The position numbers were made by a program, and so were the translations under genes. 64,000 nucleotides of DNA from Candidatus Chloroploca sp. Khr17 (GTDB lineage Bacteria; Chloroflexota; Chloroflexia; Chloroflexales; Chloroflexaceae), in contig NZ_RYFF01000026.1 of the NCBI RefSeq assembly GCF_004138165.1, forward strand, positions 1 through 64,000, read 5' to 3'. The notes beneath the pieces are model-generated. The model did not search any database. It was not told the DNA's origin and was given only the letters and a program-made list of their open reading frames with translations. This document shows positions 22,317 through 31,933 of the stretch, one piece after another. The number at the start of each line of letters is the position of its first letter. Positions within the stretch are counted from its first letter, which is position 1.

Positions 22317-23213
22317 ATGAAACACGCAGCGCTCGCCGTCATTGCCGTCGTGCTGGCCCTCGTGCTTGCTGCCTGTGGCGCACCACAGGCGAGCCAGTCC
22401 ACGAGTCCGCCGCCCCCAACCAGTCCCCCTGCCGCGCCTACCGAGGTTCCAACCACCGGGCCGACCGTTGCGGCTACCGCGACCACGCTCAGCGGCCCCC
22501 TGATCGTTTTTGCGGCCGCCTCGCTGACGGATGCCTTTGAGGCGATCGCAACCGCCTTTGAGCAGGCCTACCCTGGAACCGAGATCATCTTCAATTTCGC
22601 CGGTTCGCAGCAACTGGCAGCGCAGATCAACGAAGGTGCGCCGGCTGACGTGTTTGCCTCGGCTAATCGCAGCCAGATGGAGGTCGCGATTGAGGGTGGC
22701 CGCGTGATCAGCGGTACGCAGCAGACATTTGTCCGCAATCGGCTTGTTGTGATTACCCCCAGCGATAATCCAGCAGGGATCACGACCTTGCAAGATCTGA
22801 CCAACCCTGGCCTCCGGCTGATCCTGGCGGATCAGGCCGTCCCTGTTGGACAGTATAGCCTCGCCTTTTTAGCCAGGGCCAGTGCCCTGCCCGCGTATAC
22901 CGAAAACTACAGCGCCACCGTGCTGGCGAATGTGGTCAGCTTTGAGGATAACGTGCGTTCGGTCTTGACCAAAGTGGCGCTAGGTGAAGGCGATGCCGGC
23001 ATTGTTTATAGCACCGATGCCGCCCTTGAGGCCGACAATATTCTACAGATTGCCATTCCCGACGAGTTAAACACGATCGCGAGCTACCCGATCGCGCCGA
23101 TCGCTGATAGGGCAAACCCCGCGCTCGCGCAAGCCTTCATTGATTTTGTGCTCGCACCCGAGGGTCAGCAGATTCTGGTCAAGTACGGCTTTATCTCGCC
23201 TGAGGGAACATAG
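22317..23213 (+). CDS. modA: Molybdate ABC transporter substrate-binding lipoprotein ModA
   Basis: A 298-residue lipoprotein. The lipobox is LVLAACGAP (Cys at about residue 20), followed by a Pro/Thr-rich linker to about residue 60. The mature ModA domain starts LIVFAAASLTDAFEAIATAF, continues FNFAGSQQLAAQINEGAPAD and contains the family blocks NRLVVITPSDNP, LILADQAVPVGQY, ENVRS-like EDNVRSVLTKVALGEGDAGI and VYSTDAAL. It captures molybdate or tungstate outside the cell. A strong GAAGGAGG site precedes the ATG. It is followed one base later by modB. Confidence 0.93.
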   Translation: MKHAALAVIAVVLALVLAACGAPQASQSTSPPPPTSPPAAPTEVPTTGPTVAATATTLSGPLIVFAAASLTDAFEAIATAFEQAYPGTEIIFNFAGSQQLAAQINEGAPADVFASANRSQMEVAIEGGRVISGTQQTFVRNRLVVITPSDNPAGITTLQDLTNPGLRLILADQAVPVGQYSLAFLARASALPAYTENYSATVLANVVSFEDNVRSVLTKVALGEGDAGIVYSTDAALEADNILQIAIPDELNTIASYPIAPIADRANPALAQAFIDFVLAPEGQQILVKYGFISPEGT

Positions 23214-25739: not shown

Positions 25740-27395
25740 CTATCGCCCCAAGTCAGACGCCTGCGGTTCTGGCGCTTCGGCAAACGGGTCGCTGAAGCGT
25801 GGGTCGTTCACAAAGGTCTGGTCGGTTAGCGCTTCCAGGAAGGCCAGCAGGTCAGCCCGCTCCTGGTCGGTCAGGGTGAAGCCGCTTACAAGGCCGCTCT
25901 TGAGCGGGCTGTGCCGCCCATCACCGGCATATGGCCCGCTGAGGATGTGGCGACCACCTGCCTCATACAGGCGAACGACCTCTTCCAACGTCGCGACGCT
26001 GCCGTCGTGCATATACGGTGCCGTCAGCGCGACGTTCCGCAGGCTGGGGGCGCGAAAGCGGCCCATATCCTCGGGCCGGTTGCTCACCGCCGCCACACCA
26101 GTGTTATTGGCCGGGTAGGCGCCCTGGCCGTCCAGGTTGTAGAGACCGGTGTTGTGAAACGGGGTCTCGATGAAGACGGTATTGCGCTGCCGGGTTGAAC
26201 CGGTGAAGTTGAAGCCGCCGTGGCAGTGGTGGCACTCGAGTTCCTCCGAGAGGAACATATCCATCCCACGCAACGCCGCCGACGACAGCGCACTGAAATC
26301 ACCGGCCACGTAACGGTCGTACGGCGAGTCGGCTGAGATCAGGGCACGGTTAAAGGAGGCCAGGGCCTTGACGATGTTGCCCCAGGTATACGGGTCAGAC
26401 TCGCCGGGGTAGGCTGCGGCAAAAAGCGCCTGGTAGTCCGCGTTGTTCTGGAAGCGGGCCAGCACCTCGGCCTCGTGCCCGGTGATGCCAAGCTCGACGG
26501 GGAACTCGCTGAACATCGGGATGAGGATCTGTCGCTCTAAGTCGGTCAATACCGGGTTGGCCCAGGTGAGCGTGCTGTAGTAGGCGACATTCGCCAAGCC
26601 CTGGCTGTTGCGGGTAAGCAGTTCGCCCGTTGCGCCGTGAGGGATGGGCTTGCCGTCGGTAAAGGCTCGACTCTGCTCGTGACAGCTTGCGCAGGCCATC
26701 GTCCCGTTGACCGAGAGGCGCTTGTCGTAGAAGAGCAGGCGTCCGAGCGCCACTTTCTCCAGCGTCATCGGGTTGTCGGGCGGGACATAGGGTGGCGGAA
26801 AGCCGGCGGGCAGGTTCCAGGCATAGGTATCTTCGACCTGTGCGGGTGCCAGCACATACCCCGCCTGGGCGGCATCGTCATGCACATGATTATGCCCATC
26901 GTGGCTGTGGCCTGGCGCCTCGGCCAACTGCGGCAAGGAGGGCGCAAGCACCAGACCGCCGCCCCAGGCCAGCAGTCCGGCACCAAGGCAAGGCATGACG
27001 CTGCGCACCAGCAGGGCGACCGGATTGCCCCGTGGGGGTGCGAAGGCCCCGGCATGATCGAGCCCCACCAGGGCGAGGAAAGCCCCGGCCTCGGCCAGTT
27101 TGGTGGCGGTCGCTGCCCAGTCAAGCGGGTGGGGCACCGTGGCAAAGGGCGTCGCCACTAGGTGCGTCAGCAACCAGAGCACCACGACCCCGCCCGAGAG
27201 CAGCAGCCCTGGCAGGCGCAGCGCCGGATCGAACCGATGCCACCAGAGCCCGGCATACCCGAGTTGGGCCAAGCCCAGGGCCGCGAAGATCAAGCCGTGA
27301 GCCGGCGCGTGAACATAGTGGTCGGGAGCGATCAACAGGTGAATCGCTCCAGCGACCATCATGCAGAAGAGGACGACACGTTGGATAGATCGCAT
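25740..27395 (-). CDS. mbnH: MbnH-like di-heme enzyme with N-terminal membrane domain
   Basis: A 551-residue protein of the CcpA/MauG superfamily. Residues 1-165 form four or five membrane helices, followed by a His-rich linker ([16 protein letters not shown], about 172-188). The di-heme domain has CASCH (C235-H239) and CHHCH (C388-H392), with [13 protein letters not shown], a [21 protein letters not shown] block and a C-terminal [16 protein letters not shown]. Together with MbnP, MbnH oxidises a Trp of its partner to kynurenine in a copper-binding setting. Family members are normally periplasmic with a signal peptide and about 400 residues; the membrane domain here is an extra. It lies downstream of MbnP on the same strand. 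Confidence 0.85.
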
Positions 27396-27720: not shown

Positions 27721-28692
27721 CTACGGGTTTTGCAGCCGGAACAGTTGTTGGGGTCCGGCGACGGCTCCCGTCGTCAAATCCAGGCCGAAGCCAGCGAAGA
27801 GCGCAGGGCAGTCTGGGTCGCTCGGGCCAGACATGCAGCCGGGAGGCTCGGGTGTATTCTGGTCAAGGGGAACGCCCTTGAGCAGGCTGGCGAGGTCGGC
27901 GACGATGATGCTCTTGCTCGGGTCGAAGCCGTCGAGACGGGCCGAGACGAGGTTGGGGTTGCTGCATGGTGCGGTGGGGGCCGCAGCGCGGTCATTCGAC
28001 TGGCAGCCAGTGCTGCCCATATGAATGAACCAGGCCGTTGGTGACGGGGCACCTTCCCCCTGCATCTCGCCCGCGCTGGTCGGGGCAGTGGCGCTCATGT
28101 CCATCGCCGGGGCAGTGGCGCTCATCTCCATCGTTGGAGCCATCGCCGCGTCAGCCATGCCGACCTGCATATCTACACGCATAAACTTGTAACCACCCTG
28201 CCAGTTCCACCAGAGCGCCTGGATATTGAGCGGTGAGGATGCGGCGGTGACGTCAACATGGTTGAGCGCGAAGGGCACGCCCATATCGAACGCGACTCCG
28301 GTGTACCGCCCGGCGGGTGCCGTGCCCTTGATCACGTTGTTGGTCGCTGAGTTGCCACTCTCGCTACAACCGGCGCTGCCATCTTCAAAGTCAAGCAGAG
28401 CGACGTTCTGGTACTGCCACACGCCATCCTGGGCGAGCTCAAGCGGAACCTCCTGACCCTGGGCGTTGATCAGGCGGATGTTGGACACATACAACCGCAA
28501 GTCGGTGAACGAGATCGCGCTACCCGAACTGCCAACGCCAGCGTAGGTCTGGCCGCAGACAGCGGGTTTGTCATCGACGTTCATAGCGAATTCGAGTGTG
28601 ATATTGCCATCAGTATTGTTGGCCGGGCCGCAAGCAGCCAGGGCAAGCAGAAGCATGGCGGCCACAAGCAGGCCGCGAAGATAACGCAGCAT
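27721..28692 (-). CDS. mbnP: MbnP-like copper-binding lipoprotein
   Basis: A 323-residue lipoprotein with lipobox LALAACGPA (Cys at about 21). The family pattern is clear: ITLEFAMNVDDKPAVCGQTY, ISFTDLRLYVSNIRLI, VALLDFEDGSAGCSE, VIKGTAPAGRYTGVAFDMGVP and the LWWNWQGGYKFMRVD block, whose Trp is the kind converted to kynurenine by MbnH. Four family cysteines can be placed. Unusual is a Met-rich insertion (about residues 175-210: MADAAMAPTMEMSATAPAMD and more), which could bind Cu(I). It lies upstream of MbnH on the same strand and downstream of a small Cys-rich membrane protein. Confidence 0.85.
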   Translation of the reverse strand: MLRYLRGLLVAAMLLLALAACGPANNTDGNITLEFAMNVDDKPAVCGQTYAGVGSSGSAISFTDLRLYVSNIRLINAQGQEVPLELAQDGVWQYQNVALLDFEDGSAGCSESGNSATNNVIKGTAPAGRYTGVAFDMGVPFALNHVDVTAASSPLNIQALWWNWQGGYKFMRVDMQVGMADAAMAPTMEMSATAPAMDMSATAPTSAGEMQGEGAPSPTAWFIHMGSTGCQSNDRAAAPTAPCSNPNLVSARLDGFDPSKSIIVADLASLLKGVPLDQNTPEPPGCMSGPSDPDCPALFAGFGLDLTTGAVAGPQQLFRLQNP

Positions 28693-28799
28693 AGAGAGTC
28701 CTCCCTTTCACAGTGCGAAAGCAAACACCAGCACAAGACACGGTGTTCTAGAGTCCAATTGATCCTAGAACATGCAAGTAGGCGAGCAGGCTGGGAAAC

Positions 28800-29258
28800 T
28801 CAGGCGTGCAAAAGGCGAGGGGGTGGCGTAGGGGGAGGGATCGTGAGCGGTGCAAAGCGGCGAGCAGGTGGCAGGAAGAGCAGGGTGACCAGCAGGCTGG
28901 ACAGCAACAGCAGTGGCGCAATGATCGAGACGAGCTCATAGAGCGCACGTGGCGTCATCGTTGTTGCCGGGGCCTCTGCTTGCCCCGTCGGGATCACGGT
29001 CACATCCTGCGCTGCCCTGGCGTGCTCACCGCAGAGGAAAAAGGCAATGGCGGGGCGCTCGGCGAGAAGTTGCTGCACAAGGCAGTGGATCACGCAACTG
29101 AGTGGGCTGAGCAAGCCAAGCTCGAGCGCGATCAGCAAGGCAACAAGGCGCGGCACCCAATGGCGCAGCTTGTTCGCCAGGGATGCCTTCACGCCCGAAG
29201 CCAACCGATGCCCAGAGGTCGGTATGAAATACAGGCTTTCATTTTTTGTGTATTTCAT
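28800..29258 (-). CDS. Small membrane protein with CxIHC...FLC motif (paralogue A)
   Basis: A 152-residue protein with two membrane helices (about 37-53 and 112-135). Between them lie C55-V-I-H58-C59 and FLC76, and later PRALY and a Pro-rich tail (IPPPTPPP). The same elements in the same order occur in the protein at 30577-30987, so this is a paralogue pair. I do not recognise the family. Closely spaced Cys and His suggest metal binding, and the neighbours MbnP and MbnH suggest copper; both are inferences. The start is uncertain: ATG at 29258 is chosen because upstream codons belong to a hairpin and a pseudogene. Confidence 0.6.
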   Translation of the reverse strand: MKYTKNESLYFIPTSGHRLASGVKASLANKLRHWVPRLVALLIALELGLLSPLSCVIHCLVQQLLAERPAIAFFLCGEHARAAQDVTVIPTGQAEAPATTMTPRALYELVSIIAPLLLLSSLLVTLLFLPPARRFAPLTIPPPTPPPRLLHA

Positions 29259-29274
29259 CACGAGCGTGATTATA

Positions 29275-29325
29275 GCAGCTTTGCTGCTGCGGGGCAATGA
29301 AGTTGCCCCGCAGCAGCAAAGCTGC
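29275..29325. repeat. 23-bp perfect hairpin before paralogue A
   Basis: GCAGCTTTGCTGCTGCGGGG... (29275-29297) and its exact complement, loop TGAAG. It lies 16 bp upstream of the start of the minus-strand gene and just at the truncated end of a beta-helix pseudogene. It may be a terminator left from that gene or a 5' leader structure. Confidence 0.6.
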
Positions 29326-29800
29326 GCTTGGCCTCTTTCCTCTCTCTTATCGCCGGAGCTGTGTTGCCGTCGAACAGCGAGCCGCAGACCTCGACCGTAT
29401 TGCGCGCATCCGGGTTGAAGGAGTTCGACACGCCATCCAGGTGCAGCGCGCCGCCCCGCCGTGCCCGCGCACAACAATGCCGCCAGCGGTGGCGTCGGCA
29501 GCCCGGTTGTCGGTGAATGCGCTATTGTAGACCAGCAGACCAGTAGCAATGCCGCCGAAGGCCCCGCCGCTGCCCGCTTCGTTGTCATTGAAGCTGGCGC
29601 CAACAATGACCGTCTCGTAGATATTGGCGGCAAAGATCGCGCCGCCCTGATTATCTTCGTCAGTAATGCTGGTAGTGCGGTTGCTCTCGAAAGTTGTGTT
29701 CAAAACATGCAAGCGCGTACCCGGGTTCGCGCCAATCCAGATCGCGCCGCCGCGGGCATTGGCGTCACGGGCGAACGATGCGACGCAGGGCCTCACCAAT
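29326..29800 (-). pseudogene. Right-handed beta-helix surface protein, frameshifted remnant
   Basis: The upper part reads ARGGAIWIGANPGTRLHVLN, TTFESNRTTS, GGAIFAANIYETVIVGASFN, DNEAGSGGAFGGI and NSAFTDNRAADATAGGIVVR, the ladder pattern of pectate-lyase-like or polymorphic outer-membrane proteins. Near 29450-29461, in a CCGCCCCGCCG stretch, the frame shifts by one and continues as LHLDGVSNSFNPDARNTVEV, CGSLFDGNTAPA. Both ends of the gene are missing: no signal peptide or C-terminal anchor is present, and a hairpin replaces the end. A dead fragment of a large secreted adhesin-like protein. Confidence 0.7.
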
Positions 29801-30500
29801 CTAGGGCAAGGGTGCCGAGAAGTTCCCTTGTCGTGTAGGCCTCAATCCGCAAGTCGAAGGCACCATGTCTGATAGCCAGGGCTCTGCCATTTCGCGCCAA
29901 GCACCTGCTTAGGGCGACTGCATCTTCCGTTGGTGCGTGCCACCATGTGCGCGGATCGCACTCATCCGCCCATACCGTCGTCGTACACGGCTCGGCTACC
30001 GCGAGCGAAGCCGACCTTCGTCGGCTGAATCAGGCCACGAAGATGGCCTTTGCACACCACGAGCCGAGCCGTTATGGTCTTCCAGTACATAATTCGGTAT
30101 GCGCCCGATGCCGTGGGGCTGAAGCCCTCGGCGAGGGGAAGCGAAGCCCGCCTGCGCGGGCTAGACCGGATTCATTTCGGGAAGATCATAAGCCGGCACT
30201 CCCTTCGGCAGCAGAGCAGAAAACTTATTTCCCAGACTACTGAATGCAGCGGCAATCGGCATCGCGCTGCGCATCCATGCGTCGGGGTCGTGGGTTGCCC
30301 GCTTCGTTGGCAGCGGCACCCTACGCGAACTGACCAGCGCGAAGGTCGCGCAGGGTGAGCCTAGGTGCGTAGGGAGATTGCACCTCTGGGCGCATCGCCG
30401 CCGCCGGAGCGCAGATGATCAGCGGTGTGAACAAGTGACTGATTCGCGTCGTGCTACTCCAAGATGGACGAAAGCGGTAGCACATAGGACAACGCTGATC
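29801..30500. other. 700-bp repeat-rich stretch without a recognisable gene
   Basis: Contains AGGGCGACTGCATCTTCCGT near 29912, which resembles the end of the MITE-like element at 7574-7864; a CGGCTCGGCTACCGCGAGCG ... GGGCTGAAGCCCTCGGC region at 29985-30165 related to 14357-14435; and a TTTCCCAGACTACTGAATGC segment at 30221-30243 related to 20489-20640. A plus-strand frame at about 30250-30360 (IGIALRIHASGSWVARFVGS) looks codon-biased but is only about 40 codons and unrecognised; it may be another gene remnant. Confidence 0.5.
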
Positions 30501-30506
30501 TGATGG

Positions 30507-30534
30507 TTGGAGGAAGGGCATCACGTGGTATAAT
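30507..30534 (+). promoter_or_regulatory. Sigma-70-like promoter for paralogue B
   Basis: TTGGAG (30507-30512), 16 bp, then a consensus TATAAT (30529-30534), 42 bp before the ATG at 30577. The -10 box is perfect; the -35 is 4 of 6. Confidence 0.55.
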
Positions 30535-30576
30535 TCCGCTCGTCCAGATCCATCGCCCGCAGGCGAAAGCGCATCA

Positions 30577-30987
30577 ATGATAGCAACGCATGTCAAGCGA
30601 CGAACCCGGTCGAGTTTCCTGCCGCTCATGCCTCGCACTGCGACGGTGATCAGCTGCACTGCTGCCTTGCTCATTGGCTTCATCAACCCCATCCTGTGCC
30701 TCATCCATTGCGCGTTTTCCCGTCAGCACACAACGCTGACGAGCGAACAGCAGATCTTTCTCTGCGACCTCGAACCTAGAATAACATCCAGCGTAAGCGC
30801 ACCCTTCTCGGCGGTCTGGAGCGGCCCCCGCGCGGTCTACCCAGCCCTCCAGGTTGCCCCGCCGATGCTGGTCGTCATCTTCATTATCGTGCTCAGGCTT
30901 GATTTCCTCATCGCTACGGTGCGTATCTATCTTCCGCCACCCAGCTTCCCTCCGCCAAAAGTGCGCCCCCACCTCACGGTGCGCTGA
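30577..30987 (+). CDS. Small membrane protein with CxIHC...FLC motif (paralogue B)
   Basis: A 136-residue protein with membrane helices at about 22-39 and 92-115. C41-L-I-H44-C45 and FLC63 correspond to C55/H58/C59 and C76 of the protein at 28800-29258; GPRAVY and a Pro-rich tail (PPPSFPPP) correspond to TPRALY and its tail. Overall identity is low, so the conserved positions probably matter. The role is unknown; metal handling is inferred from Cys/His and from the c-type cytochrome gene that follows 271 bp later. A good promoter lies upstream. An alternative start is the ATG at codon 18. Confidence 0.6.
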   Translation: MIATHVKRRTRSSFLPLMPRTATVISCTAALLIGFINPILCLIHCAFSRQHTTLTSEQQIFLCDLEPRITSSVSAPFSAVWSGPRAVYPALQVAPPMLVVIFIIVLRLDFLIATVRIYLPPPSFPPPKVRPHLTVR

Positions 30988-31010
30988 AATCGTTGCGTGT
31001 GCCTGCCGTT

Positions 31011-31168
31011 CTCGGCGTTTGGCGCTTGACGCTTGACGCTTTGCGCTTTGCGCTTGACGCTCTGCGCTTTGCGCTCTGCGCTTTGCGCTTGACGTTCTGC
31101 GCTTGACGTTCTGCGCTCTGCGTTCGGCGTTCTGCGCTCTGCGCTTTGCGTTCGGCGTTCTGCGCTCT
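31011..31168. repeat. Low-complexity GCGCTTTGCGCTTGACG-type tandem array
   Basis: About 158 bp built from mixed units of 10-11 bp: GCGCTTTGC, GCGCTTGAC, GTTCTGC, GCGCTCTGC and GTTCGGC in irregular order. Six-frame reading gives artificial repetitive ORFs on both strands. It lies between paralogue B and the cytochrome gene. The array is degenerate, so it is old or mutates by mixed slippage. Confidence 0.85.
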
Positions 31169-31258
31169 CCAATCAGGTACCGCCTATGATTCAGCGCATC
31201 GACCATCAACTAGCACGAACTATTGTTCATCACTTTGGCATCTTATGGAGGTATGCAT

Positions 31259-31933
31259 ATGAGTTGGCGTCCAACGAACCATGATCGCCGCGGGTCATCA
31301 TCATCTAGACCTGCGCACACCGAGCCCTCACTGCTCAATCCCACGTTGCTGATCCTGATCGGTGCCGCCCTGGTTCTGGGGGTGGTTGGCGTTGGGTTGA
31401 TCGTTATCTTCGGCGGAGGGATGGGTCAGCAGGCTACGACGGCCATGCCGCCGCAGCCGGTTGCTGCCACCCTACCGCCGGCCGCGACCGCAACCTCGGC
31501 CCCGACCGCAACCCCAGCCCCGACCGTTGCTGCCCGTAGCCGTGCGACGCAAGCCACTGCGGCACCCGTCAGCGCTGCCGAGGCCGGGCCTGTGGAGACC
31601 ACCGGCGATGCTGCTGCTGGTGCTGCCCTCTTCGTCGCCCTGCCGTCCGAGGCCATCGCCGTAGGCGGGATCAACTGCATTACCTGCCACAATATCGCTC
31701 CGGGGAGCGGCACCCTCGTGGGGCCGAGTCTGAGCGGTGTTGGCGCTACGGCCGCCTCACGCCAGCCTGACCTGAGTGCCGCGCAGTACCTGCGCGTCTC
31801 GATCATCAACCCGAACGCCTATGTCGTGGACGGCTTCGCTGCAGGAACGATGCCAGCGGTCTATCAACAACAACAGGGGCTCACCTCAGCACAGATTGAA
31901 GATCTGGTGGCCTATATGCTGACCTTGCCGTAA
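31259..31933 (+). CDS. Membrane-anchored c-type cytochrome
   Basis: A 224-residue mono-heme cytochrome c. An N-terminal helix (about 29-52, LLILIGAALVLGVVGVGLIV) anchors it outside the membrane. A Pro/Thr/Ala-rich linker follows (about 60-115). The class I cytochrome domain has C140-I-T-C143-H144, GTLVGPSLSGVG, and an axial Met in AAGTMPAVYQ near residue 200, ending LTSAQIEDLVAYMLTLP. It resembles the soluble domains that accept electrons in oxidase or photosynthetic chains. ATG at 31259 sits 7 bp after GGAGGT; an ATG at 31253 is too near the ribosome site. Followed by a strong terminator. Its electron partner is unknown. Confidence 0.87.
   Translation: MSWRPTNHDRRGSSSSRPAHTEPSLLNPTLLILIGAALVLGVVGVGLIVIFGGGMGQQATTAMPPQPVAATLPPAATATSAPTATPAPTVAARSRATQATAAPVSAAEAGPVETTGDAAAGAALFVALPSEAIAVGGINCITCHNIAPGSGTLVGPSLSGVGATAASRQPDLSAAQYLRVSIINPNAYVVDGFAAGTMPAVYQQQQGLTSAQIEDLVAYMLTLP

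Follow-up and report, generated by a model that had tools for sequence, protein, structure and literature searches.

Cis-acting nascent-chain sensors are exemplified by SecM, MifM, and TnaC, whose signals, sequences, and targets differ from those of the family described below. CutF of Rhodobacter capsulatus binds copper via a CxxxC motif, and its C-terminal proline motif alters translation of cutO (PMC9973294). The passages of that report considered here present CutF-like proteins as scarce in Chloroflexota and do not name the family. In CruR of Bordetella pertussis, a DUF2946 (PF11162) protein, the motifs CXXC and RAPP control read-through by Rho (PMC9426467), and arrest by CruR was demonstrated in vitro (PMC12992588). 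Leaders with RAPP or RGPP motifs are situated upstream of sec, PCuAC, PepSY, YcnI, and DsbA genes (PMC10987492, PMC12992588). We analyzed a 64,000-nucleotide stretch of Candidatus Chloroploca sp. Khr17 (positions 1 to 64,000 of contig NZ_RYFF01000026.1, contig 87 of a 6.38-Mb genome), referred to as the window. Two of its open reading frames (ORFs), A and B, are, judging by sequence, members of one large undescribed family centered on Chloroflexales. With a probability of roughly 70%, we regard them as paralogous cis-acting leaders that regulate the next gene upon sensing an extracytoplasmic metal, copper being the likeliest candidate.

A preliminary description of the window had noticed that both ORFs share CxIHC, FLC, PRA(L/V)Y, and a proline-rich tail. 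The ORFs and their elements lie as follows:

28800..29258, minus strand: leader ORF A, 152 amino acids, two predicted helices
29082..29096, minus strand: CVIHC of A at the end of helix 1, candidate metal site
29031..29039, minus strand: FLC of A, with the third conserved cysteine
28938..28952, minus strand: PRALY of A
28815..28826, minus strand: PPPR of A, proposed ribosome-arrest element, 4 residues ahead of the stop
30577..30987, plus strand: leader ORF B, 136 amino acids, two predicted hydrophobic segments
30697..30711, plus strand: CLIHC of B
30757..30765, plus strand: FLC of B
30826..30840, plus strand: PRAVY of B
30949..30960, plus strand: PPPK of B, proposed arrest element, 8 residues ahead of the stop

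The resemblance holds up in searches and in a common family alignment. With A as the query, B was retrieved from the same genome (expectation value [E] 5.8e-5, 31% identity), and B retrieved A (E 4.7e-5), so that the likeness exceeds chance. The translated tails read PPPTPPPR in A and PPPSFPPPK in B. Both ORFs are coding and under purifying selection, because the ratio of nonsynonymous to synonymous substitution rates (dN/dS) stays below 1 in every one of 24 family pairs; comparing B with its 89% ortholog gave 0.40, and comparing A with the A-type leader L127 gave 0.27. This dispels the concern that one of the two frames might be non-coding. AlphaFold2 placed helices of A at residues 18-67 and 104-128 with moderate confidence (mean predicted local distance difference test score, pLDDT, 72.5; predicted template modeling score, pTM, 0.40). 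The F-x-C region scored below a pLDDT of 50, and the model therefore speaks neither for nor against a formed metal site. A Foldseek search of the model against PDB gave no matches, which is unsurprising given two helices modeled at moderate confidence.

A profile built from 20 members was searched against 158 genomes of the class and, at E <= 0.01, matched 59 of them, all within the window's own order (82 genomes), with none of the 76 genomes of other orders matching. Genomes carry up to six copies. In a phylum-wide sample of 400 genomes (E <= 0.001), 38 matched, 35 in the order and three in one genus of another class. We studied 89 members from 80 neighborhoods and the window; these neighborhoods were drawn from profile matches and are thus a non-random sample including closely related genomes, and in two of them (L125 and L134) the member runs into a contig edge. 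No Pfam or NCBIfam model claims the family, scans of 71 members giving scattered weak matches, which bears out the earlier surmise that it is undescribed. No paper describing it was found in a literature search whose range ended short of subscription papers and supplements. Neither a plasmid search with A nor a phage search with one of its close relatives turned up any relatives. A truncated third copy on another contig of the same genome (G000:C84:83875-84087, at about 5876-6088 of L004) is a relic of an A-type leader, with 55% identity and an in-frame stop; no copper gene was recognized alongside it.

The typical member consists of a first helix ending in P-x2-C-x2-H-C, a loop with F-L/V-C, a second hydrophobic helix, and PPP(R/K); many members also carry a P-R-A-x-Y segment between F-x-C and helix 2. 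In an alignment of 20 sequences including A and B, the sole invariant columns were P, C, H, C, C, and P. When 71 members were aligned, the proline and first cysteine of P-x2-C-x2-H-C and the PPP near the end were invariant, and the histidine, the second cysteine, and the F-x-C cysteine were each at least 90% conserved. The first metal-type site reads CxxHC in 80 of the 89 members, CxxNC in one, CxxFC in four, and CxxHE in two, and the last two, assessed by eye, have no CxxxC.

The C-terminal element is better conserved than the loop and helix 2. PPP(R/K) occurs in the last 30 residues in 66 of 68 members of a first set and in 81 of 89 of the full set, and PP lies within 15 residues of the C-terminus in 66 of 68. 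PPP(R/K) is found within about 18 residues of the stop and is followed by 0 to 18 variable residues (median 4). As a control for search bias, the profile was cut before helix 2, which excludes the C-terminus; it still found 86 members, and PPP(R/K) was present in the last 30 residues of 60 of 66 matches not used in training, compared to 15 of 5,553 other ORFs at the same loci. Its recurrence with this profile argues against a search artifact. All four proline codons are in use in PPP, which indicates that selection acts on the peptide. The distance from CxxHC to PPP was 76-102 residues, and at most 90 in 60 of 62 members; that from the third cysteine to PPP was 55-81 residues, and at most 72 in 61 of 62 (the first 69 members minus L134 and those not fitting the motif patterns). 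Although the sequences between the cysteine sites and PPP are scarcely alike, this spacing is tight.

The next gene was co-directional with the leader in 84 of 87 members, and 83 of these genes began within 1,000 nucleotides. At the same loci, co-directionality was seen in 459 of 676 non-family adjacent pairs (68%) and in 54 of 85 cases on the upstream side of the leaders. The three exceptions are L113 and L143, where co-directional DJ-1 and cytochrome genes exist that the gene caller missed, and L167, where a CopC-like gene follows 1.1 kb onward. The nearer gene was taken as the target, in place of the caller's choice, in L091, L092, and L107, as well as in L113 and L143. Among 86 first downstream genes, 23 encode a c-type cytochrome, 22 PCuAC, 10 CopC or CopC-CopD, 5 a Crp-type regulator, 4 each SCO1, MbnP, and a YtkA-like protein, 3 PepSY, 2 a DsbA-like protein, and 1 each DJ-1, DsrE, and an unnamed lipoprotein; another 6 specify a binding protein or ATPase of metal-, heme-, or B12-type ATP-binding cassette (ABC) transporters. 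The Pfam families come from the 25 listed of 31 downstream, rarer families falling outside. At least 44 of the 86 targets belong to copper families (PCuAC, CopC/D, SCO1, MbnP, YtkA), and no efflux pump or multicopper oxidase is among the 86. The strong link to copper and heme suspected in the preliminary description therefore persists across the family.

Upstream neighbors of 79 members were mixed. Considering the 25 of 108 upstream families listed, methyltransferases and acetyltransferases ranked first, none of PCuAC, cytochrome c, SCO1, and MbnP occurred, and CopC was upstream in four members, all where gene maps show tandem cassettes.

Some targets extend the range beyond copper genes. Five leaders (L142, L116, L105, L171, L182) are situated ahead of Crp/Fnr-type regulator genes, and the leader may therefore also feed a transcriptional branch. 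Six leaders (at L140, L141, L110, L177, and L178) precede ABC transporter genes for ZnuA-like or FecB/BtuF-like binding proteins and one ATPase, hinting at the sensing of other metals, heme, or B12. In L127 (3081-4207), the genes after an A-type leader encode a DsrE-like protein and a ModA-like binding protein rather than a copper protein.

On a tree of 86 members with 11 target labels, 32 target changes were required, compared to a minimum of 10 and a shuffled mean of 54.4. This number is far below that of the shuffles, yet far above one origin per target; 31 of the 83 inner branches were left open. The 13 members of the clade of A (support 100/95) have MbnP, cytochrome c, PCuAC, CopC, and two further genes as their targets, whereas the nine members of the separate clade of B front cytochrome c genes only. 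Because of these separate clades and different target ranges, A and B are regarded as old paralogs. In three tandem loci of one genus (L106, L137, L138), a leader, a CopC/CopD gene, a second leader, and a cytochrome gene follow each other. The mirrored layout of A and B, to which the preliminary description had attached meaning, is real, but it does not constitute a joint unit: head-to-head leader pairs occur in 3 of 81 neighborhoods (the window, L096, and L113), and the window holds two separate, independent leader-target units back to back.

Family, anatomy, spacing, coding selection, position, target types, and target swapping can be read directly from the DNA and its translations; topology, metal binding, arrest, regulation, and the direction of the response we infer. 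In the mechanism we propose, the leader would be translated first, and helix 1 would enter the membrane, placing CxxHC and the F-x-C cysteine on its outer face. The ribosome would pause at PPP(R/K), with the F-x-C cysteine about 62 and CxxHC about 80 residues away from the peptidyl-transferase center. Some 30-35 residues fit into the ribosome tunnel, and the translocon accommodates a similar number. Given these lengths and the spacing, the sensor would just have cleared tunnel and translocon at the pause, as if timed to reach the outer face when PPP(R/K) is read, and helix 2 would still be in the tunnel (its center about 26 residues back). Metal binding might then alter the dwell time of the ribosome at PPP(R/K), and ribosome occupancy might set transcription or translation of the downstream gene, with Rho, messenger RNA (mRNA) decay, or coupling as candidates for this last step.

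The alternative that fares best is a small membrane copper chaperone or metal relay acting in trans, which would pass metal from its Cys/His site to PCuAC, SCO1, MbnP, or CopC and use the proline tail as a cytoplasmic contact. A Cys/His site conserved on two helices and metal-linked partners with which it is always expressed would suit such a protein. However, the partners found behind one and the same leader clade are unrelated (cytochrome c, ABC binding proteins, and Crp-type regulators among them), each target of a tandem locus has a leader copy to itself, the leader is always upstream and hardly ever downstream, and the conservation of PPP(R/K) above that of the loop and helix 2 is left unexplained. 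We consider this alternative unlikely and prefer a nascent-chain leader over a carrier because of the strictly upstream position in cis, target swapping, the one-leader-per-target tandems, and the near-invariant PPP(R/K). Of the role in copper or heme delivery that had been proposed for A and B, the link to these cofactors thus stands, whereas delivery itself is disfavored by the upstream cis position (84 of 87), target swapping, and the PPP(R/K) end.

Less probable still is a leader that senses no metal and acts by translational coupling, polar effects, or ribosome-shielded mRNA stability, with the Cys/His residues serving folding or disulfides. This would accord with the lack of a recognizable switch structure and with non-copper targets such as DsbA-like proteins and Crp regulators, but metal-type residues are invariant and metal or heme targets overwhelming. 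Least credible is a family sensing heme, redox state, or oxygen through its cytochrome c, Crp, and DsbA-like targets, since, although cytochrome c outnumbers every other single target (23 of 86, besides 5 Crp and 2 DsbA-like), copper families account for at least 44 of the 86 and the motif is CxxxC rather than the heme-binding CxxCH. Binding of heme c by CxxHC is ruled out by the residue order, which does not agree with CxxCH.

Several observations weigh against metal-sensing arrest leaders as we envisage them. The second cysteine is replaced in two of the 89 members (HE), CxxxC is absent from two others, and PPP(R/K) is missing in eight, most of which terminate in PPPQ, PPPE, or PPPI or lie at the end of a contig. 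The order contains seven MbnP matches in 6 of its 82 genomes; a leader lies directly 5' of four, and none was found near the other three, implying that the link is frequent, not obligatory. At the RNA level, pairing of the target ribosome-binding site was no higher than in controls (0.571 versus 0.572), and leader-target intergenic stretches were less structured than controls (mean z -0.92 versus -1.81), so that a CutF-type masking hairpin is unsupported as a general feature. No C-over-G skew hinting at Rho sites was seen in these stretches. Their median length is 160 nucleotides, and some leaders are more than 400 nucleotides away from their target; pairing, structure, and distance figures used uncorrected targets for L091, L092, and L107, so that the longest distances are overstated.

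For the proposed response to copper, we predict the same sign as for CruR, with targets expressed under copper shortage and repressed once copper is supplied, because the targets are copper supply proteins or the copper-free cytochrome c and the 86 include no efflux pump or multicopper oxidase. Auracyanin is the blue-copper carrier of these bacteria (PMC8004040); the presence of cytochrome genes among the targets hints that cytochromes may replace it to spare copper. A bolder version, which we hold tentatively and at somewhat less than even odds, is that Chloroflexales possess their own metal-sensing arrest leaders, independent of DUF2946 and CutF, in which a two-helix membrane hairpin exposes a Cys/His site as the ribosome reaches PPP(R/K). 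Copied onto many operons (up to six copies per genome), one such module would run a post-transcriptional copper regulon, including a switch from blue-copper protein to c-type cytochrome when copper is scarce. If true, a deep-branching phylum without detectable DUF2946 would use arrest leaders of its own as its main post-transcriptional copper regulon, and nascent-chain metal sensing would be a principle invented repeatedly. Dozens of natural leader-target pairs with a fixed sensor-to-arrest spacing would become available for testing how a ribosome feels metal binding, filamentous phototrophs would have a copper-dependent control point for electron carriers, and a gene that opens many operons and at present carries a hypothetical annotation would receive an identity.

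As the preliminary description had it, A precedes MbnP-MbnH genes and B a c-type cytochrome gene, and the domain models agree. The surroundings of both leaders comprise:

27721..28692, minus strand: MbnP-family copper-binding lipoprotein, target of A (PF20243, E 1.2e-41)
25740..27395, minus strand: MbnH-family di-heme enzyme with N-terminal membrane domain (TIGR04039, E 7.6e-154)
28693..28799, minus strand: A-to-MbnP intergenic stretch, 107 nucleotides, Shine-Dalgarno-like GGGAGG ahead of MbnP
29269..29297, minus strand: sigma-70-like promoter TTGCCC-17-TATAAT just 5' of A (2 found versus 0.8 expected in shuffles)
31259..31933, plus strand: c-type cytochrome with N-terminal membrane anchor, target of B (PF00034, E 7.9e-9)
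30988..31258, plus strand: B-to-cytochrome intergenic stretch, 271 nucleotides, containing the degenerate tandem repeat 31011-31168

A perfect inverted repeat at 29283-29317 on the minus strand has 15-base arms and a 5-base loop, can be extended further, and overlaps the promoter predicted for A in its -35 part. It is present as a single copy in the genome and is no repeated element; it could be an operator. The start of the cytochrome gene was chosen by GGAGG ahead of its ATG, and an in-frame TTG start is located at 31223. The 31011-31168 repeat consists of degenerate 7-base units resembling CGCTTTG or CGCTTGA. Antisense ORFs over this array resemble those in the sister genome G001 (L087), which makes it probable that the array is conserved. 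The window also contains a molybdate-type permease gene at 23140.

Among the described systems, DUF2946 was ruled out as the family's home by model, motif, and profile. Its Pfam model exceeded the cut-off in none of the 82 genomes of the order and gave two weak matches to the 71 members (best E 0.01), a profile comparison of the family with three DUF2946 proteins returned a probability of 1.2%, and the family profile, searched against eight proteobacterial plasmid records, gave no significant match (best E 0.04) and missed every DUF2946 gene on them. Ideonella dechloratans has a DUF2946 gene 197 nucleotides ahead of MbnP-MbnH, in the slot held here by A. A Variovorax plasmid (NZ_CP070344.1, about 753454-754229; L197) has two head-to-head DUF2946 matches, like the mirrored leaders of the window.

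Like CutF, the family provides the first gene ahead of a copper gene, encoding a small exported or membrane protein with CxxxC and a C-terminal proline motif, and like CutF-like genes, its members have a co-directional target within 1,000 nucleotides, with PCuAC a frequent neighbor (PMC9973294). CutF itself has a cleavable signal sequence and a hairpin masking the target ribosome-binding site (PMC9973294), whereas the family has a second helix after the sensor, a PPP(R/K) end, no such hairpin, and cytochrome c as the top target. Set against the published rules for CutF-like proteins (PMC9973294), members show CxxxC, PP near the C-terminus, and a co-directional target. As to the length rule of <150 residues, A has 152 and B 136, and other lengths hinge on uncertain start codons. 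As to the signal peptide, a hydrophobic helix is present, but it has the cysteine site at its end and is followed by a second helix.

Leaders with RAPP or RGPP share with the family a membrane signal followed by a C-terminal proline arrest motif (PMC10987492, PMC12992588). The family lacks RAPP and RGPP, and a motif search on these letters would miss it; the string PPPR is absent from the text of PMC12992588. CruR likewise heads operons with PCuAC, SCO, CopC, MbnPH, and PepSY, is followed by a long intergenic stretch (162 nucleotides versus the family median of 160), and has its cysteine motif a constant number of residues away from the proline arrest motif at the C-terminus (PMC9426467). CXXC and RAPP are 45 residues apart in CruR, compared to about 80 and 62 residues from CxxHC and F-x-C, respectively, to PPP(R/K). 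By analogy, the family is most likely a working counterpart of CutF and CruR rather than a demonstrated relative of either.

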